Below, piece after piece: positions 8,451 through 25,752 of a stretch of DNA of 64,000 bases. The notes beneath the pieces are model-generated. The model did no database searches. It was not told the origin of the DNA and saw only the letters and a program-made list of their open reading frames with translations. The translations under genes and the position numbers were made by a program. The stretch spans positions 3,162,001 to 3,226,000 of the forward strand of contig AP027304.1 of assembly GCA_036322835.1 (NCBI GenBank). Direction: 5' to 3'. This DNA comes from Tenuifilaceae bacterium CYCD (GTDB lineage Bacteria > Bacteroidota > Bacteroidia > Bacteroidales > Tenuifilaceae). How positions within the stretch are numbered: the first letter of the stretch is position 1; every line of letters begins with the position of its first letter.

Positions 8451-11400
8451 CTATTTTACTGTAAACCCAAACTTCTGATAAATATTATCTCTATCAACCG
8501 TTGGGTGCTGCAAATCTCCACTGGCTTTTGCTACCTGCTCGCTTACGTATTGGCGGAGCTCATCGGTTGAGACAGTTCCGTTATTATCCTTATCCGCTTC
8601 TGTTGTGGTAAGGGCTTTTATAATGTACTCGGTGAAAAGCCCGTTTTCAATGTCGCTGCGCTCATAGCTAAGTTCACCACCCTTGGAACTGGAGAATACA
8701 ATGGCTCCGCTTCGGCGGACAAGGTCGTTGTAGATGTAGCGGTCCTTCTGGTAAAGGTAGCTTCGCTTGGTTGTTGGTTGTTGGTTGTTCGCTGATTGGG
8801 AAGAGGTGGTTTTGAAGCCGCGGGAGGCGATTCCCAAACCTTTCAGGTTTTCAAAACCTGAAAGGTTTTCATAGGTTTCATCATCAATCTCGCCCGACTC
8901 GCAGGCATCCATCAGGAATAGCTTGTTACGCGGTGGAATTCCCTGAAGCAAATCCTCTATAGTTTCAAAGTCCGCCGCTGTGGCTTTAAGGTTGTTCACA
9001 TCGGCATTACTGGTTAAATAATAGTAGGTTGCCTCAGCATCCTTATCGTGCATACCATGGCCAGCGATGAAGAGAATGAAAGTATCATCTGGTTTGGCAT
9101 TTTTCACGAAATCCTTTGATGCTTTGATTGCTTCGGGGGTTACCTGCTCATTCGTGAGAGTTTTGGTGTAGACATTTTCGAAGCCTTTGCCTTTGAGATT
9201 TTGAATGGTTTTCTCCAGGTCAAGAGCATCCTTGTGGGCATATGCTAGGTTATATGACGTATTTTGATACTTTGATACACCAAAAGCCAAGAAATATATA
9301 TCTTTTTTTACAGGTTCACTGTTTATTAGCTTTATTTGATCCCTATAACTTTCAACGCCTAAATTGTTGGTACAAGAAATCTCAACTTTATTTATCCCAG
9401 ATGATAAAACAACTGATTCTGAACCTTTATTCAAATTACCTTTTATAGATTTACCATAAATACCCCAAATTGGTACGTCATTGATAAATATTGAATATGA
9501 CTTTAACTCATGTTTTGGATCAGAAACAGAAAAACTGATATCAGCGCTAACTCCTGTTTGCTTTATATCTGTTATTTTAGCAACCGGTACTTCAAGTTCT
9601 GTGAACGACCAATTATTATTCACCCCAAGTTTTCGAATACGCTTTTCATATTGCTTTTCATATTGTTTGACAATTTGAGCATCGTATGATGGTAGTTTTT
9701 TCATAATAAGGTCTGGGCGATTTGTGTTTGTTGCAAATTGGTCGATTCCCCACAGATTCATGCCTTGAACCATATTAACTATATTTGTAGCATTTATTGA
9801 ACCATCCCAGTAGCCATCAGAATTGTACACTAGCCAGGTTCCAATTTCACTGTTATAATAAAATGCAGTCCATGAGCCATCATCAATATTCCATAATCTA
9901 GCAGTACCATCAGAATCCGTTGATAAAACATATTTATCGTTATAGGCAAAATTTGCTGATGAAAAAAAGCCAGCATTGCCTTCTAATACTTTAATTGTTT
10001 GATTGGTGGCTAAATCCCAAATTCTAATTTTAGAATCGTTCAATAATGAGAGAGCTAAAGTCCCTTTAGAATTTATTGATAATAAGCCAACCCATGGTGA
10101 GCCTTCTAATGGCTTTTCCTTATTTTTATCGCCAACCCTCTCTACATATGTATCAGAGGAATGTTCAAAGTTTATTGTTGTTTTAGTCGTTGAAATATAA
10201 AACTTTTGGGGCCTATGTGTGGGCATCAGTATATAATCTTCCTCCTTGAATTTTGTTTTACCCTCAGGCTCTCCTTTCCCTAAATAATCGAAACTAAAAT
10301 TATCATACCCTTTTTTGGAAATTAACCATTTTTTATCAGGCGTTATCGCATAGTAATCCCATTCATCACCCTTGTACAGGTTATTTAGTTCAATTGGGCG
10401 GCATTGTCTTAAATCCCAGAATATTAATTGTCTTGATCCATTAACCATAAAAAAAGTATCTGTTGTTGGAATAAAGTAAGCGTTAGAAACGCTACTTATT
10501 TTTCCTGTAAAATACTGGATTGGCTCAGCGGTATTAATATCCCAAAGGGTTGGTATTTTATCACTACTTCCTATCAGTACGTTTTTACTGTCGGGGGACA
10601 AGGCTATTTCGCATTCAAATTTCTCTTGTTTTATCTTCTTTACTAATTCTTTAGAATCTACATTCCATAGGTAAATATTGGAATTATTACCTGATCCAAC
10701 TCCGGCAATCAATAGTTTGTCATCATTGGAAAAAGCAAGTCGGAATGCTGAAGAGTTCTTTAGGGGATAATTATATATTTCCTTTTTAGTTTGTACTTCC
10801 CATATCCGCATTGCATCATCTTTACCTGCTGAAGCTACAAATTTCCCATTATGCGATAGCGAAACACAATAGACTAAGCCGGAATGAACAAGTGTTGCAA
10901 TGTTTTTCTGCTTTTCAATATCCCACAGCTTAATATCGTTATTCCAACGAGCACATGTAGCCATTGTTTTGCCATCCTGCGAAATACTGATATCAAGTAT
11001 TCCGTTTAAAGACTGACCCTCATTATGCATTTTCTTCATTGTAAACAATACTTGCCCTGTAGCAATGTCGAAACGCTGCACCACATTGCAATTTGCCGAA
11101 CCCGCTAAAAAAGTTTTACCGTCTGGGAAAATTTTAATTGCAGATATTCCATGCTCTTTACCTTTCTCAAAACTATCAAATGTTTTTATCACTTTACCTG
11201 TTGATAAGTCATACATTATCATTTGCTTATCACGAGATCCAGTAATTACATATTTTCCATCGGGGGTAATATCCATGGCAGTTACCCATGATTTATGCCC
11301 AACAAATGAACGTAATAGTTTACCACTAGCTATATCCCACAATTTTACGGTTTGATCGTTAGAAGCGGTTAAAACATACTTCCCTTCTGGAAGAAATGCG

Positions 11401-11540
11401 ACTCTTTCAATTCCACCAATATGGCCAATCTGAATGTTTAAATCGGGTTTTAAATTAGAGTTTAACTGGGCTTTAACATGGTTTATTGGTATCATATAAA
11501 CCACAACAAATAAAAACAAAAAAGTAACTTTAGTTTTCAT
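8451..11540 (-). CDS. Exported WD40-propeller/caspase-domain (C14) protease, copy 1
   Basis: 1029 aa. Signal peptide at 1-24 (ending HVKA). Degenerate WD40 repeats follow to about residue 590 (FLPEGKYVLTASNDQTVKLWD and others), then a linker with NSDGYWDGS and IDQFATNTNRPD shared by all three paralogues, and an Ig-like segment. The C14 domain begins near 755. The catalytic dyad is intact: H828 in FIAGHG and C880 in LMDACESGE. The Asp two residues before the Cys is the metacaspase-type pattern linked to Arg/Lys specificity (inference). An EF-hand-like loop, DKDNNGTVSTDE, occupies 983-994 in the p10 part. The p20-p10 linker is encoded by a palindrome and heptad repeats. It is 6 nt upstream of a sensor kinase gene. 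Confidence 0.93.
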   Translation of the reverse strand: MKTKVTFLFLFVVVYMIPINHVKAQLNSNLKPDLNIQIGHIGGIERVAFLPEGKYVLTASNDQTVKLWDIASGKLLRSFVGHKSWVTAMDITPDGKYVITGSRDKQMIMYDLSTGKVIKTFDSFEKGKEHGISAIKIFPDGKTFLAGSANCNVVQRFDIATGQVLFTMKKMHNEGQSLNGILDISISQDGKTMATCARWNNDIKLWDIEKQKNIATLVHSGLVYCVSLSHNGKFVASAGKDDAMRIWEVQTKKEIYNYPLKNSSAFRLAFSNDDKLLIAGVGSGNNSNIYLWNVDSKELVKKIKQEKFECEIALSPDSKNVLIGSSDKIPTLWDINTAEPIQYFTGKISSVSNAYFIPTTDTFFMVNGSRQLIFWDLRQCRPIELNNLYKGDEWDYYAITPDKKWLISKKGYDNFSFDYLGKGEPEGKTKFKEEDYILMPTHRPQKFYISTTKTTINFEHSSDTYVERVGDKNKEKPLEGSPWVGLLSINSKGTLALSLLNDSKIRIWDLATNQTIKVLEGNAGFFSSANFAYNDKYVLSTDSDGTARLWNIDDGSWTAFYYNSEIGTWLVYNSDGYWDGSINATNIVNMVQGMNLWGIDQFATNTNRPDLIMKKLPSYDAQIVKQYEKQYEKRIRKLGVNNNWSFTELEVPVAKITDIKQTGVSADISFSVSDPKHELKSYSIFINDVPIWGIYGKSIKGNLNKGSESVVLSSGINKVEISCTNNLGVESYRDQIKLINSEPVKKDIYFLAFGVSKYQNTSYNLAYAHKDALDLEKTIQNLKGKGFENVYTKTLTNEQVTPEAIKASKDFVKNAKPDDTFILFIAGHGMHDKDAEATYYYLTSNADVNNLKATAADFETIEDLLQGIPPRNKLFLMDACESGEIDDETYENLSGFENLKGLGIASRGFKTTSSQSANNQQPTTKRSYLYQKDRYIYNDLVRRSGAIVFSSSKGGELSYERSDIENGLFTEYIIKALTTTEADKDNNGTVSTDELRQYVSEQVAKASGDLQHPTVDRDNIYQKFGFTVK
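8768..8795. repeat. Four heptad repeats inside caspase copy 1
   Basis: Plus-strand units TGGTTGT, TGGTTGT, TGGTTGT, TCGCTGA. They encode the Ser/Asn/Gln/Thr-rich part of the linker between the p20 and p10 parts. Four heptads also occur at the matching place in the other two caspase genes. Confidence 0.8.
8836..8868. repeat. Perfect palindrome inside caspase copy 1
   Basis: A perfect 16-bp inverted repeat (AAACCTTTCAGGTTTT and its complement) around a single C at 8852. It is read in frame as ENLSGFENLKGL in the caspase linker. The same palindrome is in copy 3 at 22805-22837 but absent from copy 2. Confidence 0.9.
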
Positions 11541-11608: not shown

Positions 11609-14600
11609 TCATTTTACTCCAAACCCAAACTTTTGGTAAATATTATCCCTATCCACAGTGGGGTGCTGCAAGTCACCGCTAGCCTTAGCCACCTGTGCAC
11701 TCACGTACTCGCGGAGCTCATCGGTTGAAACGATTCCATTTCCATCTTTGTCAGCTTCGGTTGTTGTAAGGGCTTTCATAATGTATTCAGTGAAGAGTCC
11801 GTTCTCAATATCGCTACGTTCGTAGCTTAACTCACCACCCTTTGAAGACGAGAACACGATTGCGCCGCTTCGACGGACAAGATCGTTGTAGATGTAGCGA
11901 TCTTTCTGGTATAAGTAGCATCGCTTCGTTGACGGTTGAGAGTTGACGGTTGATGGGGAAGAGGTGGTTTTGAAGCCACGGGAAGCAATGCCAACGCCTG
12001 TTGCAGTAGCTATCATCTGCCCTTGATCCTCCTCGTCAATCTCCCCCGATTCGCAGGCATCCATAAGGAAGAGCTTATTGCGGGGAGGAATCCCTTGTAA
12101 CAAGTCTTCGATAGTCTCAAAATCGGCTGCGGTGCCTTTTAGGTTGTTAATATCGGCATTGCTGGTAAGATAGAAGTATGTAGCATCCTTATCGTTATCG
12201 TGCGTTCCGTGACCTGCAATAAATAGAACAAAAGTGTCATCGGGTTTAGCATCTTTCAAAAAGTCTTTGGTTCCCTTAATCGTTTCGGGTGTAACATCTT
12301 CGTTTAGGTAAGTTTTCGAATAAACATTAGCATAATGTCCACTGGTTTTCATTTTCTCAAAAACATCAGATAAATCCTTGGCATCTTTATCGGCATACTG
12401 CAGGTTTAATTCTGCGTTTTTGTACTTCGATACGCCAAAACCTATGTAGTAAAGATTTGGCTTAACGGGAGAGGCGGGTTGATAACTAGCGGAAGTAAGT
12501 GCTCTGAATGACTCGGCTCCGTATTCGTTCATTGCAGAAACTTCTATCTTATTATCACCAGAAATAAGTTCAATGGTTTCAGTAAGAGCCAGTGATCTTA
12601 AATCAATGTTTGCAGTTCCAGAAAGATCTTTCCCATAAGTTCCAAATATTGGAACATCATTAACAAATATATTGTAACGGGTTACCTTTGCAGTTTTACT
12701 CGTTATGGTAAAATCGACATTTACATTCTTGCCCGATTGAACTGTTTTTGTAATCTTTGTTTCTGGAGTTTCGTAGTCTTTCGAAAGTTTATCCTCTGTA
12801 AGGTTTAGTTTTTTTAATCGTTTAAGGTATTGATTGTAATAATGTTTTATTAATTCAGGATCTACTTTTGTAATTTTTCCCAATATTTTATCGGGACGGT
12901 TGTTCTTTATAGCAAACTGATCGATATTCCATACCTCCATTCCATGAACCATTGCAACAAGGTCGCCTCCATTTGGAGAGGCATCCCAGAAGTTTTCGTT
13001 ATTGAATACAAGCCATTTAGTATCTTGATTGTTAGAGTTGGCAATTGAAGTATAGATTATTTCGCCGCTTGCCACATCCCAAAACTTGAGAGAATTATCA
13101 GCAGAGCCTGAAAGGATCGTTTTCCCATCGGGTGAAAAACAAACAGAATAAACACAGTTTGTATGTCCTGTAAACGTTCTCATAGAAGTCTTCGCTGAAA
13201 TATCCCAAAGTTTAATACTGTTATCCGAACTTCCTGAAAGAGCATACTTACCATCGGGTGAAAAACAAACGGAATTAATTAAGTCAGAATGCTCTGAAAA
13301 AGACCTTAATTCTTTTCCACTGGAAACATCCCAAAGTCTCATTGCATAATCATATCTTTTAGATGCTGAAGATCCAGCCTCAAAACCTCCTGAAAGAGCA
13401 TACTTACCATCTGGTGAAAAACATACAGTCCAGAACCTTGCGTGAGGAATCTTTGAAAAGGTTCTGACTTCTTCACCTGTGGATATATCCCAAAGGATAA
13501 TATTACTTTCACCTGTTAATACATATTTCCCATCAGGAGAAAATACTACGGAGTTTATACCATTACTATAACCTGAAAACGTTCTGATCTCTTTACCTGC
13601 GGAAAGGTCCCATAATTTTATTGTTTTATCCTCGCTTCCTGAAATAGCCATCCTCCCGTCAGGAGAAAATGCTACGGAATTAACTATTCCGGAATGTCCA
13701 GAAAAAGTTTTAATCTCATTTCCTGTGGCAATATCCCAAAGTTTTAAATTGCCATCAATGCTTCCTGAAAGAGCATAGTTGCCATCGGGAGAAAAGCAGA
13801 TAGATTTAACCCATTTTGAATGCCCTTGAAAAGTTTTAACTACTTTACCTGACGAAACCTCTAGTAAATTAAAAGAGTTACCAATCCCTGAAAGAGCATA
13901 TTTACCATCGGGAGAAAAACAAGCAGAAACAACAGCCATAGAGTTCTCTGAAAATATTTTAGCATCCTTTCCTGATGTAATATTCCAATATTTTAGAGTG
14001 TTATCACCACTTGATAGAGCATATTTACCATCAGGTGAAAAACACACAGATGAAGCAAATCTGGAATACCCAGGAAAAGACATGACCTCTTTTCCAGATG
14101 AGATATTCCAAAGTATTACTTTCTTATCTTCACTTCCCGAAAGAGCGTATTTACCATCCGGGGATAAACTAACTGTATTTATTTCATCTGAATTCACTGA
14201 AAATGTTTTAACCTTTTTTCCTTTTACAACATCCCAAAGTTTTAACGTTTTATCTCGACTCCCTGAAAGGGCATATTTCCCATCAGAAGAAAAACAAACA
14301 GAGGATACAGCACCTTCATGCCCTGTAAAAGTTTTTATCGATATTCCTGTTGCAATATTCCAAAGTATTATGGTTTTATCTTCACTTCCCGAAAGAGCAT
14401 ATTTACCATCGGGGGAAAAACAGACCGAATTAACATAATCGGTATGCCCAGACAAGTATTTGAATACCTCTCCAGTTGAAACATTCCAAAGTTGTATTTT
14501 GCTATCAAAGCCTCCCGACAGAGCATATTCTCCATTTGGGGAAAAGCTGACTGTATAAACGGATTTATTGATTCCAGAAAAAACTCTGATTTTTTCCCCG

Positions 14601-14917
14601 GTTAGTATATCCCAAAGTATTATGGTTTTATCAGAACTTCCGGATAGAGCATATTTCCCATCAGGGGAGAAGCACACACAATTAACAATATCCGAATGCC
14701 CAAGGAAAGTTCTAACCACTTTCCCTGTTGCCATATCCCAAAGTTTTAACGTTTTATCCTGACTCCCCGAAAGAGCATATTTCCCATCAGGGGATAAACA
14801 TGCTGCGTTAATATTTTGAGAATGACCTGCGTTTACGGTTAATACTGGTTGTTGAGCAAATGTAGTTGCCGAACTAAACAGTATGAAAATCAAATATACG
14901 TTAATGAATCTTCGCAT
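11609..14917 (-). CDS. Exported 14-repeat WD40/caspase-domain (C14) protease, copy 2
   Basis: 1102 aa. Signal peptide MRRFINVYLIFILFSSATTFA. Fourteen consecutive, very regular WD40 repeats (SPDGKYALSGSxDKTIxLWD) fill about residues 25-620, enough for two seven-bladed propellers. The shared linker (IDQFAIKNNRPD) and an Ig-like region follow. The C14 domain carries H903 in FIAGHG and C955 in LMDACESGE. An EF-hand-like loop, DKDGNGIVSTDE, spans 1056-1067. The p20-p10 linker (EEDQGQMIATATGVG) lacks the palindrome seen in copies 1 and 3. The gene ends 68 nt before copy 1. The propellers probably bind a partner and hold or gate the protease; substrate unknown. Alignment to metacaspases supports basic P1 specificity only as inference. 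Confidence 0.95.
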   Translation of the reverse strand: MRRFINVYLIFILFSSATTFAQQPVLTVNAGHSQNINAACLSPDGKYALSGSQDKTLKLWDMATGKVVRTFLGHSDIVNCVCFSPDGKYALSGSSDKTIILWDILTGEKIRVFSGINKSVYTVSFSPNGEYALSGGFDSKIQLWNVSTGEVFKYLSGHTDYVNSVCFSPDGKYALSGSEDKTIILWNIATGISIKTFTGHEGAVSSVCFSSDGKYALSGSRDKTLKLWDVVKGKKVKTFSVNSDEINTVSLSPDGKYALSGSEDKKVILWNISSGKEVMSFPGYSRFASSVCFSPDGKYALSSGDNTLKYWNITSGKDAKIFSENSMAVVSACFSPDGKYALSGIGNSFNLLEVSSGKVVKTFQGHSKWVKSICFSPDGNYALSGSIDGNLKLWDIATGNEIKTFSGHSGIVNSVAFSPDGRMAISGSEDKTIKLWDLSAGKEIRTFSGYSNGINSVVFSPDGKYVLTGESNIILWDISTGEEVRTFSKIPHARFWTVCFSPDGKYALSGGFEAGSSASKRYDYAMRLWDVSSGKELRSFSEHSDLINSVCFSPDGKYALSGSSDNSIKLWDISAKTSMRTFTGHTNCVYSVCFSPDGKTILSGSADNSLKFWDVASGEIIYTSIANSNNQDTKWLVFNNENFWDASPNGGDLVAMVHGMEVWNIDQFAIKNNRPDKILGKITKVDPELIKHYYNQYLKRLKKLNLTEDKLSKDYETPETKITKTVQSGKNVNVDFTITSKTAKVTRYNIFVNDVPIFGTYGKDLSGTANIDLRSLALTETIELISGDNKIEVSAMNEYGAESFRALTSASYQPASPVKPNLYYIGFGVSKYKNAELNLQYADKDAKDLSDVFEKMKTSGHYANVYSKTYLNEDVTPETIKGTKDFLKDAKPDDTFVLFIAGHGTHDNDKDATYFYLTSNADINNLKGTAADFETIEDLLQGIPPRNKLFLMDACESGEIDEEDQGQMIATATGVGIASRGFKTTSSPSTVNSQPSTKRCYLYQKDRYIYNDLVRRSGAIVFSSSKGGELSYERSDIENGLFTEYIMKALTTTEADKDGNGIVSTDELREYVSAQVAKASGDLQHPTVDRDNIYQKFGFGVK
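11926..11953. repeat. Four heptad repeats inside caspase copy 2
   Basis: Plus-strand units TCGTTGA, CGGTTGA, GAGTTGA, CGGTTGA, in the same linker position as the heptads in copies 1 and 3 but with a different unit sequence. They encode the Ser/Thr/Asn-rich linker before TKRCYLYQK. Confidence 0.8.
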
Positions 14918-15122
14918 AATAGTCTACTTCTTTTGTTAATGGTAAAATTTTCAGTTCAGAAACGAGTAGGTCTTTCGGAGTTCTATTATATTTAAATTTA
15001 TAACTTAAAATGAATAGAACTATTAAACAACCCCTAAGTCCCGAAGGTATTGACATAAATCAGATAAACCAAAATAAAAGAGTTTGATAATTCCAACCAT
15101 TTTAATAGCCAATAAGTATATT
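14918..15122. other. Gap upstream of caspase copy 2
   Basis: AT-rich non-coding stretch between the start of caspase copy 2 and the caspase-tail remnant. It probably carries the promoter of copy 2. I see no convincing promoter hexamers, hairpin or small gene in it. Confidence 0.4.
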
Positions 15123-15188
15123 CTATTTAATTACTCCAAACCCAAACTTCTGGTAGATATTATCCCTGTCCACCGCGGGGTGCTGCAA
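15123..15188 (-). pseudogene. Remnant of a caspase gene 3' end (21 codons plus stop)
   Basis: Minus-strand translation gives LQHPAVDRDNIYQKFGFG, then VIK and a stop. It matches the extreme C-terminus of the three caspases (LQHPTVDRDNIYQKFGF...) with one substitution and one added residue. The match begins 5 nt after the stop codon of the CHAT gene and there is no upstream caspase sequence. It is therefore the leftover tail of a further caspase paralogue whose body was lost or replaced by the CHAT gene. It cannot be translated on its own. Confidence 0.9.
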
Positions 15189-15193
15189 ACATT

Positions 15194-18100
15194 CTACATC
15201 CCATAGTACACAAACGGAGCCCAGTAGAATGGCTGGTTGTATTGCCCCTTAATAAAAGTTCGTTTCACCTGATTGATGGCCTTTGAAATGGGCATCTTCT
15301 CAACAAACACCAAGCGGTAAAACTCCTTCTGGAATTCCATGGTCGATTGGTCGGATACTTTCCATAGCGAAACGGCAATGGAGTTTGCTCCTGCCAGTAG
15401 AAACGATTGGGTAAGCCCAACAACTCCTTCACCTCCATAAATTTTACCTAGCCCTGTTTCACATGCGGATAGGTTCACGAAGTCGGCGTTCAGGTTTAGC
15501 TTTGCAATCTCAGAGGCTCTGAGGTAACCATCGTCATTTGGCAAACCCTGTGAAAGCACTAAAGCGGATAGGTCTTGATATTCAGGGATTACAATACCAT
15601 GCGTAGCAAAGTGAAGTATCTTATATCCCTTTAGCTGACCATTAGCCGACATCCCCTTTACGCTTTGCTCGTTTACATCCTTGCCTTTTATGCAAACCGA
15701 ATTTGGAACAAGACCAGATATGGCATCAAGTTCAGCGAGAGTACCCGATAGATTTTCCCATGCAATACCTAAAGCATCGTAATACCTCTTCATGCTCACA
15801 CCGTCCTTGGAGTCAGTCTCAACGCCCTTCATCATCTCATTAAACTGTTCCTGTGATTGGGTTTGCTGGGTTTGAGCATTGGGTACATCATAAACAGCAT
15901 TTCCGAAAGCCAATAATGGTTTACGATTATCTGAATACTTTCGATTAGCCAGCTCATTCCCGACAGAGAGCGAGGGAAGGTATCGGATATCATACTTCTC
16001 AACCAGATAACGTCCATCGGGCATAATAAAAGCCTCGTAGGGAAGGAACGCTAGTAAATCGTTGGGAATAATGACAAGCTCTTTTTTACCTACCAGTTTA
16101 TCCTCAACCGGAAGAATTAGTAACTCATAGAATTTTTTGCCAAGAAAATCGATTGTTTCTTTTTCTGCTGGAGTTTTTATAGGTTTTGAAAGTAACGAGC
16201 GGTAATTGTTCGCTATTTTTTCAATCTCTCTTTTGGTTCTATCCCAATTTTCTTGTTGGGGCTGGTTTACTGCCAATTCAGTGTTAGGTGGGTTCTGTAT
16301 CCGTTTAAACGCTCGAAGCTTTTCAAACGAGCTTATATCGGAGATGCTGTACCGATCCTTTACCGATTTAACCCATATATCATCGTTTACTCCAATTCCA
16401 TCAATCGAATTGGCATCGGTTAAAATGGTTGTTAGCTTATTCCCGATATTCCCAAAACATAGTATGGCCTGTTCCTGAGGAATGTTTTTTTGCCATTGGG
16501 TTGGGTCAACAAATAGATTACTGTTTTTCCCTGCTTTACTGGCAATCCTTTCAAGAAGCAACCGAGCCGTCGATTTTTCGATAGAGTTAAATGCCCCTTG
16601 GTAGTCCTGCATTGATAGCTGGCATCGGATTATGTTCTGGTAATTTACGTATTGTCCAGACCAATAATTTAACTTCAGGTCATCTGGAACAAGAGCTCTT
16701 TCCTTCTCCCTACGGTCAATTATGCTTAAATAAAAAGGAATTGCCTGGGTATAATCATCGTTTAAATCGTAAGTAAGGCCTATCCATTTCTCAAAATTGT
16801 CGATATAAACATCATCATTAATATCCTTTGCTATTGAATAACCTTCTTTTAAGAAATCGAGTGATTTTTGCCTGCTTTGAGAAACTTCAGCCCTTCCCAA
16901 AGAGAAAAGAGCGACCATTTTCTTTTTCGGATTATTAATTTCATTGGCTAGATTTAACGCTTGTTGAGCCCAGCTAATCGATTCAGCATATTTTCCAATC
17001 CACATATAGCAAACTCCTAATTTCCCATAACAATCCACAAGCTTTTCCTTATCATCTAACTCCTTATAAATCGGGATTATTCGAAGTACATAATCTATTG
17101 CATTTTGGTTCTGTTGTATTTCAGCGTAGCAACAGGCAATATTCCATTGCACAAGCGCAGCATAACTTTTATAATCCAACTCTTCATAAATTTTTTGCGC
17201 TTTTTTATAATATTCTATGGCTTTAATGGTATTACTCAAGTCTGCATATATTGTACCTAAATGAGTTGCAATTAATGCTTTTGTAAAAGGATCATCGTTT
17301 AGTGCATCGGCCTGATTATAGTAATCGATTGCTTTAGCAAATTCTTTTAACTTTTGATAATTACTACCTATTTGAGCAATCAGCTCCGCCTGTACATTTT
17401 TTGAAAGCTTACCGGTGAGATTCTTTAAGTCTTTTTGCAACTGATCAATGGCAAAACTTGATTTGCCCATGTTTTCATATATTATTGAGAGATATTTTGC
17501 AATTTGCCCTTTTTGATCTGGTTGATCCGAAACGATAGCCGCCTGATTATAATACTCAATTGCTTTAGCATTATCTTTCAAACCAACATCATATATAGCA
17601 GCTAGCTTTATAAGCAAATCGGCTTCCTGCGTTTTGGATATTTTACCAGTGAGTTTTTTTAACGCTTTTTGCAAATACTCAATAGCTGCGCTTGGATTGC
17701 TCATATTTTGATATGCTTCAGCAATTTGCTGAGCAACAAAAACATTTTGATCGGGCAGGTCGGTTGCAACATCAGCCTGACTGTAATAATCAATTGCTTT
17801 GCTCGAATTATCGAGAAAATAAAAATAAATATTTCCTAGCTGAGCGAGTATGTTGAATTTCTGATTTGGCCCGCGTTTACTATCAGGATACGCTAATGCT
17901 TGATTACAGTATTCAATGGAAATGGAAGGATCTTTTCCTGCCCTAATGCCACTACTGATTAAAGACAGTAGAGTTCCCCTTACATAGTATGAATCATCAA
18001 GTTTTTGGCTATAAGGAAGTGCCTTTTCAAAGCATAAGAATGCGTTAGCGTGGTCCTTCTTTAAAGAATAAATATTACCTTTTACAGACCATTCATAGTA

Positions 18101-18403: not shown

Positions 18404-18427
18404 ATTGGTTTGGTTTATTATTTAAAA

Positions 18428-18535
18428 AGTGCCTAGAGTATTTGGAGTGCCTAGAGTGCCTATAGTACTTTAGGCACTCGAAGTACTTTAGTTCACTTCA
18501 AACTTCTTAAATACTCAAGGCACTTATAACTTCTT
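18428..18535. repeat. Degenerate tandem nonamer array, 12 units
   Basis: Twelve 9-nt units without slippage, among them AGTGCCTAG, AGTATTTGG, AGTGCCTAG, AGTGCCTAT, AGTACTTTA and GGCACTCGA. The array fills the gap between the MORN stop codon and the CHAT start. A related array lies at 19567-19641 and a fragment near 25808; all three share the word CTTTAGGCACT. It may form hairpins through AGTACT and GTGCC/GGCAC words. Confidence 0.8.
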
Positions 18536-18538
18536 TAT

Positions 18539-19495
18539 TTATTCAGAAACAAAATCTCCGCGGTAGAACTTCCCAGTTTTGGTTGTTCCATCGGGGTAGG
18601 TCATGGTTCCTTTGCCAGTTGCCCATTCTTCGGCGGTATCCGAAACACCCACCCATTTTCGCCCATCGCGGAATAGAATAGTTTCATCCTTGGGCTGTCC
18701 ATTTTCGTAAACTCCCTCACGGTATAGGTATCCAGATCTTTTGGGTGCTTTAATAAGCATTTTACCATTCATCTTACTATCCTTGAATGTACCATAAATT
18801 ACCTCCCCGTTAGGTTTGAAAATAACGGTATTCCCGTTGTATTGACCATTAATATCTATAGAATCGTACTTAACAACCCCAAACTTACTTTCAAACACAA
18901 CCCCCTTTACCAAGCGGTTATCGCTGAAATCCCCTTCAATCCGGCTGCCATCAGTTTTCTGGTAAATGCCTTTCCCATTTGAGCAATCGCCCAATAAACA
19001 CCCAGTCTGACGTGTGATGGTAGTTTTCTGATCGTTCTTGTATAATACCGTTTGTACATCGTCAAACTGGTATCTCGTAAATTCTCCATCCTGAGCGGTG
19101 TTTTTAAAAGTTCCAACTTCGATTAGGTTGTTTGCATAGTAGTTGATGTTGCCGTACCCGTTGGGCTGATTGTTCTCGAAGTAACCGGTATATATAATAT
19201 TATCGCCAGCCATGTGAATTTGGCCCAATCCCTCTATAATCCCATTCTTGAAGTTGCCGATGTACTCTGTTTTACCATCCGCATCAATAAGATAGCCAAA
19301 TCCATAGAAACAGTCGCCAGCAAGGCAACCAGAAAGGGTCGTTCCAAGGGTTTTAACTGGTTTAGCAAACATAGAGATGGCACTTGCATCGATCTCTGGC
19401 TTTGGTACTGTTAGAACGACGGGTGATATAGGTTCTTGTGCATTTAAACTTATTGTTAAACCTAAAGCAATGAGAATTAAATATTGTTTTTTCAT
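18539..19495 (-). CDS. Exported MORN-repeat protein
   Basis: 318 aa with a signal peptide (MKKQYLILIALGLTISLNA). MORN-type repeats with YxGxFxxGxxxGxG spacing run from about 55 to 318 (TEYIGNFKNGIIEGLGQI, YTGYFENNQPNGYGNI, TKTGKFYRGDFVSE). Two copies of a Cys-containing variant, GCLAGDCFYGFG (C57 and C62) and GCLLGDCSNGKG, suggest disulfides after export. MORN repeats mediate protein or lipid contacts. It is closely related to the C-terminal third of the next upstream gene. Position between the CHAT and caspase genes suggests a partner or substrate of those proteases (inference). Confidence 0.9.
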   Translation of the reverse strand: MKKQYLILIALGLTISLNAQEPISPVVLTVPKPEIDASAISMFAKPVKTLGTTLSGCLAGDCFYGFGYLIDADGKTEYIGNFKNGIIEGLGQIHMAGDNIIYTGYFENNQPNGYGNINYYANNLIEVGTFKNTAQDGEFTRYQFDDVQTVLYKNDQKTTITRQTGCLLGDCSNGKGIYQKTDGSRIEGDFSDNRLVKGVVFESKFGVVKYDSIDINGQYNGNTVIFKPNGEVIYGTFKDSKMNGKMLIKAPKRSGYLYREGVYENGQPKDETILFRDGRKWVGVSDTAEEWATGKGTMTYPDGTTKTGKFYRGDFVSE

Positions 19496-19566
19496 TTTTT
19501 AAGAATTAGTTAGATTGCTATTAACTATGATGTTACGTTGTATTTATTTACATTCAAGAATAATTG

Positions 19567-19641
19567 GAGTGACTTGAGTGTCTAAGTACTTCGAGTACTT
19601 AAAGTACTTTAGGCACTTATAACTTTAGGGCACTTTAAGTA
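19567..19641. repeat. Second tandem nonamer array
   Basis: About eight 9-nt units, including AGTACTTCG, AGTACTTAA, AGTACTTTA, GGCACTTAT and AACTTTAGG. It lies between the stop of the propeller-MORN gene and the start of the MORN gene, matching the placement of the array at 18428-18535. Confidence 0.75.
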
Positions 19642-19642
19642 C

Positions 19643-22279
19643 TTATTCAGAAACAAACTCTCCATCCTTAAACTTCCCAGTTTTGGTTGTTCCATCGGTG
19701 TAGGTCATGGTTCCGATACCGGTAACCCAAGGCGACCAAATCGAGTCAGGATCCTGTTTACCGACCCAAATACGACCATCGCGATAATGAACGGTGGCAT
19801 CAGTGGCTTTGCCATTAACGTACATGGCCTCAACATACAGTATTTCTTTGCCAATGCCCATTTTAGAGAGCATTTTCCCGTTTGGTTTACCATCCTTATA
19901 AATACAATGTTGTGCTTCGCCATTTTGAAAAAAAATATCCACATTCCCCTGAAATTGGTCAAGAGAGTCCTTTTTTTCGAACAGTTGAACCTGACCGTTT
20001 TCCCAGAACTGAACCCCGCTAACCTTTTTCCCGTTTACAAAAGACCCATCTATTCGAGAACCGTTCTCGTTTTGAACTATCCCCTTGCCATTCGTGCAAT
20101 CGCCAGATATGCATCCTGTTTGTCGTCCAGAACTGAGTTTGACCTCATCCTTCCATTTTGCAACTACTGTTGTAGTTGGGTAGTGAGTGGTAAAATCTCC
20201 ATCCTTCATCGTATTTGTATAAGTTCCGATTTCAGTAATTTTCTTTGCATAGAATAATGTACATCCATAGCCATTGGGCATATCATTGGCAAAGTATCCA
20301 TTGTACAAAACGTTGTCTGCTGCAAGATGTATTTGTCCTAAACCCTCCCTAACACCATTCTTGAAGTAGCCGATGTATTCTGTTTTACCATCCGGTTCAA
20401 TAAGGTAGCCAAACCCATAAAAACAGTCACCGGCAACGCAACCTGTAAGTGTAGATTCAACGGCCTTAGGTTTTTCTACTTTTATACGCTGTTTCACAAT
20501 TTTATTACCGGTTACATGTAAATTCTGCAAAAGACCAGCAGAACTGCTCTTTAATGCAGTCAACTCGTAGGGTCGTCCATCGTTGGCTATTTGAACATCG
20601 GTGTTAATCACCGGCGAATATCCATCATTAATGAAAACCGATATTTTCCCATTTTCTGTTGCTTCCACGGTCATGCTTTTATACTCCCATGTTTTGAAAG
20701 TAATATGTTCAATCAAGTTTTTTGAAACCAGAACAGTCTCCTTATCCTTTTCTAAATGGAGAAGTTGAACCCAACCATCCTGATATGCACGGACTACATA
20801 GCTTTCGTAACGACCCTTGGAATCGTTTGGAATTTTTCTAATCCAGAAGTTAAGCGATACGTAATCGCTCTTGCGGGTTGATACATCTGCAATAAAGAAC
20901 TCTAGATTAGCCTTAAACGACAAACTATACATGGTAATAAAGCTACCAATAGAAGAAGCCGTGATATCAGATTTCTCAACTCCCGAAATATTCCAAACCG
21001 TTGTACCGCCATCTCCGCGATCAAAATCGATATCAAACTTATCAGCATAGGAGTCAGTATATTCGGCAACTTTCAAGCCACTAAGCACGCTGAGGTCGAT
21101 CTTTTGCTTTGATTCTGTTGTAATGGTTGTTGAAATAGGTTGCTGATTACTCGATATTTCATTTGGATTTGAAGTTGACACTACGTTATCTTGTTTTGGC
21201 GGTTCGTAAGTATATGTGTCCTCAACTGTTTTCGAATTATCAAAATCGAATAGTTTTCCTGTTTTAAGGGAATGCATTTGGAGCGGTTTGTTCTTATAGG
21301 CTACTACAATTTTTTGCTTATCGCTTGATGCGAATAAGTAATCATCATAATTTTTGTTAGGTACAGTGTAAACTATATCCGTAACGGTAGTCGCTATATT
21401 ATTAACAGAAACACCACTACAGCTAAACATCACCATTTTATCACCTTCCGGGGTTAAAAACTGGTCATAACCTGAGTTTAAAGAAGTTGGGGTTACAGAA
21501 CCTGCTGATGCATCGTAAATGAACCCTTCGAATACTATTTCCTTCATTGAACTAAAATCACCACCAACATATACTTTGTTACAATTATCGGATGCGCTAA
21601 GTTTTGCCCTGAAAATTTTAGGGCTGAAAGGAAATTGTGTTTTGTTTATAAGGTTCATTTTACTGTCGTAATCGTAAATCCAGTAATCGTAAAGCTGCTT
21701 CTTTTCGTTCATCTCTAATTTGTTCAGAATCAATACCCCGTTATCGGGTTTGATCGCTATCCCACAAATTTGAATATGCGGATCGTTACCCTTGGAATTT
21801 TTACAATATGGTTTTGTATAAAAACTATTCAATTTATTTCCAGCACTATCTGCACAATAAACCTCATGGCCAACATCATATGCCATCATCAGGGTTCGGC
21901 TGTCGGGAGAAAAGCCTAAATACGACGCATCAAAATCAATCATTTTTATCGTCTTCCCTTTAGCATCCAACAAATAGGTTTTGTAATTATCCATACAAGC
22001 AGCTATTCGCTTACCATCGGGTGAAATCGCTAATCTAGAAACCTTACTTTTTGCATTGTTGTAACCTACGGCATCAGTAGCTGTTGAAAGAATAAGTTTA
22101 CCCTCCCCATTCCAAACTTGAATGGTACCATCCTCATAACCAGATACCATTTTTTGGTCGTTTGGGGTAAATGCCATACAGGTTACTTGACATTGGCCTT
22201 GCTGGGCGTTCTCTGTTTGAGCAAAAACGCCGTAGGTTATGATTAAACATAGAATTAGCGATAAACTTTGTTTTTTCAT
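19643..22279 (-). CDS. Exported propeller/beta-sandwich/MORN chimera
   Basis: 878 aa. The signal peptide ends GVFA. Residues 25-370 contain WD40-like blades (FTPNDQKMVSGYEDGTIQVW, ISPDGKRIAACMDNYKTYLLD). A low-complexity Thr/Ser stretch at about 375-395 leads to a concanavalin-like beta-sandwich (about 395-605; DGWVQLLHLEK, KSMTVEATENGKISVFIND). From about 610 it carries MORN repeats almost identical in layout to the neighbouring 318-aa protein, again with two GCxxGDC motifs. No catalytic residues are seen. It joins the sensor type of the caspases to the MORN part of its neighbour, so it could act as an adaptor or decoy substrate (inference). Confidence 0.88.
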   Translation of the reverse strand: MKKQSLSLILCLIITYGVFAQTENAQQGQCQVTCMAFTPNDQKMVSGYEDGTIQVWNGEGKLILSTATDAVGYNNAKSKVSRLAISPDGKRIAACMDNYKTYLLDAKGKTIKMIDFDASYLGFSPDSRTLMMAYDVGHEVYCADSAGNKLNSFYTKPYCKNSKGNDPHIQICGIAIKPDNGVLILNKLEMNEKKQLYDYWIYDYDSKMNLINKTQFPFSPKIFRAKLSASDNCNKVYVGGDFSSMKEIVFEGFIYDASAGSVTPTSLNSGYDQFLTPEGDKMVMFSCSGVSVNNIATTVTDIVYTVPNKNYDDYLFASSDKQKIVVAYKNKPLQMHSLKTGKLFDFDNSKTVEDTYTYEPPKQDNVVSTSNPNEISSNQQPISTTITTESKQKIDLSVLSGLKVAEYTDSYADKFDIDFDRGDGGTTVWNISGVEKSDITASSIGSFITMYSLSFKANLEFFIADVSTRKSDYVSLNFWIRKIPNDSKGRYESYVVRAYQDGWVQLLHLEKDKETVLVSKNLIEHITFKTWEYKSMTVEATENGKISVFINDGYSPVINTDVQIANDGRPYELTALKSSSAGLLQNLHVTGNKIVKQRIKVEKPKAVESTLTGCVAGDCFYGFGYLIEPDGKTEYIGYFKNGVREGLGQIHLAADNVLYNGYFANDMPNGYGCTLFYAKKITEIGTYTNTMKDGDFTTHYPTTTVVAKWKDEVKLSSGRQTGCISGDCTNGKGIVQNENGSRIDGSFVNGKKVSGVQFWENGQVQLFEKKDSLDQFQGNVDIFFQNGEAQHCIYKDGKPNGKMLSKMGIGKEILYVEAMYVNGKATDATVHYRDGRIWVGKQDPDSIWSPWVTGIGTMTYTDGTTKTGKFKDGEFVSE

Positions 22280-22368: not shown

Positions 22369-22424
22369 GGCAAGCGGTAAGCGACAAGTTCTTTCTTGTC
22401 TCTTGTCGTTTATTACTTTTCACT
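22369..22424. repeat. Heptad tandem array at the 3' end of caspase copy 3
   Basis: Eight 7-nt units (GGCAAGC, GGTAAGC, GACAAGT, TCTTTCT, TGTCTCT, TGTCGTT, TATTACT, TTTCACT). The two halves are roughly complementary, giving a hairpin around CGACAAG/CTTGTCG. The last units overlap the stop codon of the caspase gene. It may help end transcription. Confidence 0.65.
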
Positions 22425-25400
22425 TAATACCAAACCCAAACTTCTGGTATATGTTATCCCTATCCACCGTAGGGTGCTGCAAATCGCCGCTTGCTTTGGC
22501 TACCTGTGCACTCACGTACTCGCGTAGCTCATCGGTTGAGACGATTCCGTTTCCATCTTTGTCTGCTTCGGTTGTTGTTAGGGCTTTCATGATGTACTCG
22601 GTGAAGAGGCCATTCTCAATATCGCTGCGCTCGTAGCTTAGCTCGCCACCCTTGGAGCTGGAGAATACGATGGCTCCGGAGCGACGGACAAGGTCGTTGT
22701 AGATGTAGCGATCCTTCTGGTAAAGGTAGTTTCGCTTGGTTGTTCGTTGTTCATTGTTCGTTGATTGGGAAGAGGTGGTTTTGAAGCCGCGGGAAGCGAT
22801 TCCCAAACCTTTCAGGTTTTGAAAACCTGAAAGGTTTTCAAAGGTTTCTTCATCAATCTCGCCCGACTCGCAGGCATCCATTAGGAATAGCTTGTTGCGG
22901 GGAGGAATACCCTGTAGCAAATCCTCAATAGTTTCGAAGTTAGCCGCGGTACCTTTTAAGTCCTTTAAATCGGTATTGTAAGTTAAGTAGTAGTAAGTGG
23001 CCTCGGGGTCTGAATCGTGCATACCGTGCCCAGCAATAAATAGAATAAAGGTATCGTCAGGCTTGGCACTCTTCACAAAATCCTTTGAAGCCTTTATTGC
23101 ATCGGGTGTTACCTGCTCGTTGGTAAGGACTTTGGTGTAAACATTGGTAAAACCTTTTCCCTTGTAGTTTTCAATTACCTTCGATAAGTCTAATGCATCT
23201 TTATCGGCATACTGTAGGTTGAGTTTAGGGTTATTGTATTTTGATACTCCAAAAGCCAACAGGTACAAGCTTCCTTTTGCCTGCCCCTTATAATTGGTGT
23301 ATAGCATTGCTCTATACGATTCCACCCCCTTTTCGTTTACACAAGATGCCTCAATTTTGTTTGACCCATTCGAAAGAGGAACTGTTTCGCTTACCGTCAC
23401 GCTTTTTCCATTAATGTTTTTGCCATTTACTCCATAAACAGGAATATCGTTAACGTAAATGTGATACTTGGTTAAACTATATTTAGAATCCTTAAAAGTG
23501 ATATTAAGGCTGATATTGTTGCTGTTGATGGTTGAACTTGCAATTTCTGCTTCAGGAAAGTTCAATTCGGAAATAGTATCTTTTTCATTCAGATTTATTT
23601 TTTTCAACCTCTTTAAATACTGTTTATGGTAATGCTCAATAAGCTGATTGTCGGTACAGCCAAGCCGTTTAATAATAATATCGGGTCGATTCTTTTGAAC
23701 AGCAAACTGGTCTATTCCATACCCTTTGCAATCGTTTACCATAGTTACAAGTTGTCCCCCTAGATTCGAAGATTCAAAGTAGCCGTCGGGAGTGAAACAG
23801 AGCCAATCTTTACCTGCATTCATGATTTTGCAGATCAAATTAGTTCCCAGTTGATCATACACTTCCAGGAAGGGAGCGTTTTGCACCAGGCTTACTTTGG
23901 GCTGATTCTTCAAAAACTCATCATACTTAATGCTTGTATTACTTTCCAATGCCTTTCCATTTTTTACATTCCAGTAGTGTTTTATGCCAGTTGATTCTAA
24001 GCCAACCAAAACCTTTGAATCGTCGGAGAAAAATAGTTTAAGCCGGTTCAATCCTATTGTACTCAAATTGGTTTCAAAAATTTTAGCGCCAGTATTATAG
24101 TCGAAAACATGGATGATATTGTCGGTATCGAAAACGACAAAGTGCTTTTTATCGGGACTCGAAGCCATCTCCTTAATGTATTTATACTGACCTAAATTGG
24201 CGGTATAAAGCCTTTTGCCTGTTCCATACTCAAACACCTCTATTTTGCTATTCCATGTCGACATGTTAATTGTAGGAGCAATAATTTTTGTCAGATCAAC
24301 CATTGGGGTGTAACTAAGCCACATGGAATCGCTCAATTTAACTTCAAAAGCCTTGATCCATGTTTTAAAATCATAAAAACTAATACCTTCCGAATTTGAG
24401 AATAGAGGGAGGTACTTGTTATCCTTTGTTACATTACCGAGGGTTATGTTGCTTTCTGCTTTAAAGGTTGATTTAAGTTTGAGTGGCGAAATATCAAAGT
24501 AGAAAACTTTTCCTGTCACATCTTTTACAAAAAAACTTTGCCCATCGTTAGATAAAACAGCCTCGGAGATCGGTTTGTTATCAACTTTAGATTGAGTTAG
24601 CAGAACCTGATGCTGAAGGTTTTGAAAGTCCCAGTAAATAAGCATGGAATCTGTAGGTAGCAGGCTCCTATAACCTCCGGCTTGACAAGCAATCGTTGGG
24701 TAAACATCGGCGCGGATAGATTGCCCAATAACCTTTTCGAGATTGCCCGTTTTTATATTAAATATTTTGGTGTTTTGATTATCGCAAATACAGTAATTTT
24801 TATCTGTAACATATAGCCCCAAATCAATACTATTTGACGAGTATACTAATTTCCGCTCCCCTGAACTCAAATTTAGAGCATAAAGATTATTGTCTTCGAT
24901 GATGAACAAAAATTCATCGTTATCATCAAATACCAGATCTTTTACTAGTCCCTTAAATGCTAATGCGTATTTTTTATTTGACGAGTTTAGATCCGCTATA
25001 AATAAAGTATCCTGGTTGCTTTTGTAGATTCTTTCCATATATGCATAATACCTGCCGGTATTTGATGTAGCTGACGCATTAATGTTATAGCTTTTGTATG
25101 GAATTTTAATTCGACCTTTGACTGATTGATCATTAATGGATTGTATGGTTAAATTGCTGTTCAAATCAAGAAATGAGAGCCACTTGCCATTTCTAGATGT
25201 CTGTATATTACTTGAATTACCGATTTTAAGTAACTTAACTTGTTTGTTGTTTACGATATCATATAAAGGATAGAAATTAAGAATTTCATTACCCTCGAAT
25301 ATTAGATCCTTACCAATTATCGAATCATTAATTACGATGCATCCATTGTTAAGCGTTTTCTCGAGAAGAATATCATTTTTGAGGGCTTTTGTACTTTTTA

Positions 25401-25752
25401 CAGCATTCTGTTTAATATCCCACATATAAACGCTATCGGGTAAGTTATTGAGGAAGAATCTTGTGTACAAAAGTTTTTGGCCATCGTCGGTAAACCCGAC
25501 AATTTTTTTGAAATAGTCTACTTTATTTATTGCTATTTGCTTGTTGGTTGCTAAATCCCAAATCTCAATACCGGTATGCAAATTATAAATTGCAGCTAAC
25601 CTGTTGTTTTTACTTATGCATAAGGAGCTTCCAGCTCCGCCAAAATTAGGGTTAAACCTAAAGTTGGCATTTTGAGAATCAACCGTTGTGGTAAATCCCA
25701 CTAAAACAACTAAAACAACTAAAACATAAAATAATCGAATAAAACTTTTCAT
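22420..25752 (-). CDS. Exported propeller/caspase-domain (C14) protease, copy 3
   Basis: 1110 aa. Signal peptide MKSFIRLFYVLVVLVVLVGF. The sensor part (about 30-690) is a divergent beta-propeller with few clear WD motifs (SPDKKHFVVFDTDNIIHVFD). The shared linker IDQFAVQKNRPDI and an Ig-like region follow. The C14 domain has H909 in FIAGHG and C961 in LMDACESGE. An EF-hand-like loop lies at 1064-1075. Its last 105 residues differ from copy 2 at only about two positions, though the DNA has many silent changes, so the protease end is under strong selection. The p20-p10 linker contains the palindrome and heptads. It is probably the first gene of the caspase/CHAT/MORN run. Confidence 0.93.
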   Translation of the reverse strand: MKSFIRLFYVLVVLVVLVGFTTTVDSQNANFRFNPNFGGAGSSLCISKNNRLAAIYNLHTGIEIWDLATNKQIAINKVDYFKKIVGFTDDGQKLLYTRFFLNNLPDSVYMWDIKQNAVKSTKALKNDILLEKTLNNGCIVINDSIIGKDLIFEGNEILNFYPLYDIVNNKQVKLLKIGNSSNIQTSRNGKWLSFLDLNSNLTIQSINDQSVKGRIKIPYKSYNINASATSNTGRYYAYMERIYKSNQDTLFIADLNSSNKKYALAFKGLVKDLVFDDNDEFLFIIEDNNLYALNLSSGERKLVYSSNSIDLGLYVTDKNYCICDNQNTKIFNIKTGNLEKVIGQSIRADVYPTIACQAGGYRSLLPTDSMLIYWDFQNLQHQVLLTQSKVDNKPISEAVLSNDGQSFFVKDVTGKVFYFDISPLKLKSTFKAESNITLGNVTKDNKYLPLFSNSEGISFYDFKTWIKAFEVKLSDSMWLSYTPMVDLTKIIAPTINMSTWNSKIEVFEYGTGKRLYTANLGQYKYIKEMASSPDKKHFVVFDTDNIIHVFDYNTGAKIFETNLSTIGLNRLKLFFSDDSKVLVGLESTGIKHYWNVKNGKALESNTSIKYDEFLKNQPKVSLVQNAPFLEVYDQLGTNLICKIMNAGKDWLCFTPDGYFESSNLGGQLVTMVNDCKGYGIDQFAVQKNRPDIIIKRLGCTDNQLIEHYHKQYLKRLKKINLNEKDTISELNFPEAEIASSTINSNNISLNITFKDSKYSLTKYHIYVNDIPVYGVNGKNINGKSVTVSETVPLSNGSNKIEASCVNEKGVESYRAMLYTNYKGQAKGSLYLLAFGVSKYNNPKLNLQYADKDALDLSKVIENYKGKGFTNVYTKVLTNEQVTPDAIKASKDFVKSAKPDDTFILFIAGHGMHDSDPEATYYYLTYNTDLKDLKGTAANFETIEDLLQGIPPRNKLFLMDACESGEIDEETFENLSGFQNLKGLGIASRGFKTTSSQSTNNEQRTTKRNYLYQKDRYIYNDLVRRSGAIVFSSSKGGELSYERSDIENGLFTEYIMKALTTTEADKDGNGIVSTDELREYVSAQVAKASGDLQHPTVDRDNIYQKFGFGIK
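22737..22764. repeat. Four heptad repeats inside caspase copy 3
   Basis: Plus-strand units TGGTTGT, TCGTTGT, TCATTGT, TCGTTGA, encoding the Ser/Thr/Asn/Gln-rich linker of the caspase domain at the same place as in copies 1 and 2. Confidence 0.8.
22805..22837. repeat. Perfect palindrome inside caspase copy 3
   Basis: The same 16-bp inverted repeat as at 8836-8868, centred on a single G at 22821 instead of C, read in frame as ENLSGFQNLKGL. The central base change gives the Glu-to-Gln difference between copies. Confidence 0.9.

Follow-up and report, generated by a model that had tools for sequence, protein, structure and literature searches.

The 66 bp that directly follow the TPR-CHAT gene of the window (the whole stretch of DNA analysed, 64,000 nucleotides) are a genuine and well-defined gene scar of a known type. 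They encode the C-terminal end of a WD40-caspase with no caspase body in front of it, and are very likely the stub left by the 3' end of another WD40-caspase gene (caspX), formerly located between CHAT and casp2 and 5'-truncated by deletion or replacement (Table 1). The peptidase array would in that case once have held at least one more caspase.

A caspase tail behind the CHAT stop codon

Read along the minus strand, the array contains casp3, a WD40 + MORN gene, a second MORN gene, TPR-CHAT, the stub, casp2, casp1 and a two-component pair. The CHAT stop codon (15194-15196) is followed by the AATGT joint and then by the stub, which translates from 15188 to 15123 as LQHPAVDRDNIYQKFGFGVIK and a stop codon. 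By blastn, the stub matched the 3' end of casp2 (91% over 58 bp, E 4.7e-18), casp3 (84% over 76 bp, E 2e-16, with a match that extends a few bases past the stop) and casp1 (85% over 59 bp, E 4e-13), and no other caspase homology was detected between the stub and CHAT or in 14918-15122. As a WD40-caspase remnant, the stub has both the C-terminal homology and the loss of the remainder of the gene. It contains no catalytic part, unlike the caspases of the array, which keep the His-Gly and Asp-Ala-Cys dyad motifs in alignment. A sequence-only reading had claimed just this, a caspase C-terminus of 21 codons plus stop, 5 nt past the CHAT stop and lacking the body, and the claim is borne out. It had also proposed that CHAT replaced the front of a caspase or that a deletion joined the two; what stands of this is a body-less paralogue remnant abutting CHAT, by one event or the other.

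Table 1. Features of the array and orphan tails in other genomes (window positions unless a genome or locus is named)
Feature	Position	Strand	Basis or context
casp3, intact WD40-like/caspase gene	22420..25752	minus	
WD40 + MORN-repeat gene, upstream of the other MORN gene	19643..22279	minus	
MORN-repeat gene, one gene set with CHAT	18539..19495	minus	relative beside CHAT in G011
TPR-CHAT gene, intact, 1069 aa	15194..18403	minus	Pfam CHAT, E 1e-59
3' end of CHAT, likely recombination tract	15194..15358	minus	90% DNA identity to G011 CHAT
Joint AATGT, 5 nt, CHAT stop to stub	15189..15193	minus	
Stub, orphan 3' end of lost WD40-caspase paralogue (21 codons + stop)	15123..15188	minus	blastn, codon comparison
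casp2, intact WD40-caspase gene, next downstream of stub	11609..14917	minus	WD40 by Pfam, caspase domain by alignment; closest tail (91%)
casp1, intact WD40-caspase gene	8451..11540	minus	Pfam, alignment
G115 stub, ~28 codons, frameshifted	G115:C140:21354; L081:16297-16450		~10 nt behind DUF4384 gene
G801 stub, ~47 codons	G801:C135:18166; L189:1413-1557		~12 nt behind ankyrin gene
G784 stub, ~55 codons	G784:C336:47024; L159 ~1393-1560	reverse	~180 nt behind cytochrome c552 gene

In favour of a chance match or an assembly error, the stub is a short stretch with a likeness to sequence that is repeated at its own locus. However, the blastn E values range from 1e-13 to 1e-18, and a reversed-pattern control gave zero matches in 393 + 25 genomes. 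The stub also differs from every paralogue and so cannot be a misplaced copy of one. We therefore regard chance or misassembly as extremely improbable.

The frame of the stub differs from that of CHAT, and the first ATG past the CHAT stop, read from the sequence, opens a 10-codon peptide out of the stub frame, suggesting that the stub is probably not translated. The stub also lacks a start codon in any plausible context and is most probably an untranslated relic. Two functional roles were considered and rejected. A translated CHAT-tail fusion is contradicted by the differing frames and by conservation of the CHAT end in G011, a genome of the same family but another genus. A terminator or regulatory role gained no support from a signal scan, which returned one promoter-like site (1.6 expected) and one terminator-like site, the latter on the opposite strand inside CHAT, and placed no promoter or terminator signal inside the stub.

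Divergence of the stub and the event behind the joint

Per 57 positions, the stub differs from casp2 at 5, from casp3 at 8 and from casp1 at 9, and third codon positions account for 4/5, 6/8 and 6/9 of these differences, respectively (P = 0.045, 0.020 and 0.042 under a neutral one-third share, the three tests being non-independent). The sole length change relative to the paralogues is one whole, in-frame codon, which is extra in the stub (GVIK versus GVK or GIK). Differences that lie mostly at third codon positions, together with an in-frame codon, suggest that the stub diverged as part of a coding gene and was broken late. Its distance to each caspase is about the same as the distances among the surviving caspases of this genome, which is a single contig (C1); this argues against a recent copy, and derivation from a surviving caspase was rejected on the same divergence. 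Judged by these comparisons, the stub is the end of a separate, lost caspase paralogue.

In the preferred reading, a full-length caspX would have stood between CHAT and casp2 on their strand, and one illegitimate recombination event would have removed the segment that reached from just past the CHAT stop up to the last 21 codons of caspX, leaving CHAT intact and a stub with neither a convincing start codon nor likely translation. The event could have been a simple deletion within the order CHAT-caspX-casp2-casp1, or the front of caspX could have been replaced on arrival of the MORN-MORN-CHAT set; we slightly prefer deletion. The presumed parent order of the joint does exist, as in an unrelated genome (L099) an intact caspase of the same clade lies 51 bp behind a HEAT-TPR-CHAT gene. 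Counted against the loss of caspX, the ends of the lost segment are unreadable.

The casp3 tail and the stub form direct repeats, 7.3 kb apart, that bracket the MORN-MORN-CHAT set. We therefore considered whether the set entered the array as a cassette that cut the 3' end of a caspase, in which case a target duplication would have given rise to both the casp3 tail and the stub, as in elements that integrate at gene 3' ends. The casp3 match that runs past the stop by a few bases is consistent with this, and G011 has a related MORN-CHAT pair, which indicates that these genes can occur without the array. However, between the two repeats there are 8 differences in 57 positions plus indels, and casp2 has the tail closer to the stub, so that no fresh target duplication is present; no integrase-like gene was recognised between the repeats, where the genes are MORN, MORN and CHAT by Pfam, and the sampled flanks contained no tRNA. 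The near-identical direct repeats and integrase of site-specific integration at a 3' end were thus not found, and a cassette insertion is unlikely. A foreign composition of the CHAT set was likewise rejected, as GC is even throughout the array.

Orphan tails of the same clade in other genomes

A WD40-caspase clade scattered across Bacteroidota, Delongbacteria, Spirochaetes, Elusimicrobia, KSB1 and others has the motif QHPTVDRDNIYQKFGF as its conserved C-terminus. A degenerate tail pattern detected 5 sites in the own genome, with 0 for the reversed pattern, and the genome carries four full tail-bearing copies and one orphan. Across 393 genomes of the order, tail patterns matched at 10 sites, with further matches in genomes already known to carry the clade; the nearest clade members within the order belong to G115 (73%), G043 (69%) and G740. 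A long open frame lay upstream of the tail at 35 of the 39 sites read and was absent at 4, including the CHAT-side stub. Among the intact members, the fourth full WD40-caspase of the own genome (C1:3108181-3112329; L036:10181-14329, minus strand; tail at C1:3108940) has an FGE-sulfatase domain fused right behind its tail (FQHPVVDRDNIYQKFEFGLN), and the Spirochaetales genome Zod_Metabat.749 (G807) contains eight clade caspases, one of which (L118) has its tail out of the body frame.

All four stubs are short, at most about 60 codons of a ~1,100-codon gene, and three of the four begin ~5-12 nt past the stop codon of a same-strand gene upstream. The three other stubs follow ankyrin, DUF4384 and cytochrome c552 genes, indicating that CHAT is not special in this respect, and the searched genomes yielded no further CHAT-tail joint. 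When the caspase domain body was used as the query, no clade member reduced to a tail-less body fragment emerged. The uniform shortness of the stubs and this absence of body fragments are unlike the outcome of uniform random deletion and count against the loss of caspX; yet stubs were searched for by their tail, and a 5' stub consisting of WD40 repeats alone would be unrecognisable, so the asymmetry towards 3' stubs is suggestive only.

The same pattern might be produced by the insertion, behind a stop codon, of a copied caspase 3' end, made for instance by way of an RNA intermediate or as a short duplication. Four stubs that are all short, all keep the caspase 3' region and in three cases start just past a stop codon on the same strand would fit such 5'-truncated copies. 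The own genome, however, has no closely matching source gene, 3'-end finds are partly built into a search that used the tail, and in G784 (98% complete) no intact caspase of the clade was found that could have served as a source. The lack of an intact clade member in G784 favours loss in place over copying, and we consider truncated copying very unlikely.

That three other genomes have stubs behind non-CHAT, non-peptidase genes suggests that the CHAT-side stub reflects general caspase loss. These stubs also weaken the proposal, made from the sequence alone, that the joint ties the CHAT and caspase types into one history of swapping at this locus. The MORN and CHAT genes of G011 have no caspase or tail adjoining them, and in the congener G002, where the whole array is missing, the ancestral state is unreadable. 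As a single CHAT-stub joint was seen, with the remaining stubs behind non-CHAT genes, the stub is weak evidence for such swapping. The caspase family seems to have been lost repeatedly, leaving recognisable scars; the tail motif can be searched for as a sign of gene loss, and short 3' stubs behind stop codons are a testable pattern. The one part beyond the ordinary is the recurrence of these short 3' stubs behind stop codons, which is suggestive. It might reflect a recurrent, 3'-end-anchored removal of clade caspases in Bacteroidota and Spirochaetes that leaves a short tail (at most ~60 codons), usually just behind an upstream stop, and that acted here jointly with an exchange of the CHAT 3' end, a possibility we hold to be quite unlikely. 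If true, gene 3' ends would be recombination anchors that reshuffle peptidase arrays.

As a separate observation, the DUF4384 gene of G115 (Pfam; L081:16452-17999) has homologues near CHAT or caspase genes (L040:13178-14707, L042:3585-5129 and C1:3096961-3098508 of the own genome), four genomes in all.

The stub can be compared with known systems, each as described in excerpts of the cited papers. Truncated pseudogenes and gene remnants are documented in bacteria (PMC2916853, PMC522871). Like them, the stub is a once-coding fragment between intact genes and probably untranslated; unlike those described in these excerpts, it is a 66-bp open frame that abuts the stop codon of another gene. C-terminal displacement in Rhs genes yields arrays of dissociated tips, with the tip variable and the core kept (excerpts of PMC2935791). 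The stub shares with it an orphan C-terminal end behind another gene and a place in a gene array whose related members have conserved ends, but here the retained single piece is the conserved tail and the whole front is lost, and neither a circular intermediate nor repeated displacement was seen at the stub locus; Rhs-like tip displacement thus does not describe it. Prokaryotic caspase homologues (orthocaspases; Pfam Peptidase_C14) with WD40 appear in PMC5756287 and PMC7475262 (in part), and the stub corresponds to the C-terminal end of such a protein. Caspase-like and CHAT peptidases are both named as effector domains of bacterial conflict systems (PMC8195603 and PMC10907252, in part); the likeness of the present locus to these consists in the presence of both peptidase types, and membership is not claimed.

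The locus in relatives and the 3' end of CHAT

The nearest congener with a readable locus, G002, is collinear on both flanks, and C1:3124424-3187936 of the own genome (~63.5 kb, the whole array) corresponds to ~1.8 kb there. This counterpart contains two small genes, with caspase, CHAT and tail all absent. Window positions 1-25936 fall within the ~63.5-kb stretch, which thus forms a large variable region, and no tRNA was detected in the loci scanned from it. No close caspase of the clade was found in another congener, G001, and the other examined genomes of the family contained no further close member. In no genome examined did a full caspase separate this CHAT from casp2, G002 lacking the array.

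The closest relative of CHAT is that of G011 (56% identity), which has a MORN gene as its neighbour. DNA identity between the two genes is 90% over the last 164 bp, up to the stop codon, and ~71% or less upstream, and the last 50 codons are identical in protein. The same codon is used at 33 of 46 comparable positions at the end versus 39 of 108 in the preceding 150 codons (P = 8e-5). A comparable codon step was absent from seven other CHAT genes (for G051, P = 0.04 uncorrected). The pattern is clearest in the last ~130 bp, and the final ~130-160 bp of CHAT, beside the joint, are likely a recombination tract.

Repeats and signs of exchange were also observed elsewhere in the array. On either side of the MORN gene, at 18427-18532 and 19557-19638, lie related repeats that include inverted (palindromic) copies (AAGTACTTTAGGCACT-like). 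The two MORN genes are near-identical in DNA over their last 25 codons (18539-18613 and 19643-19717), with the same codon at 17/19 positions versus 24/53 before (P = 9e-4), pointing to local gene conversion or duplication. Finally, codons ~880-954 of casp1 show few synonymous differences from the matching part of casp3 while the genes are otherwise diverged, which suggests gene conversion.
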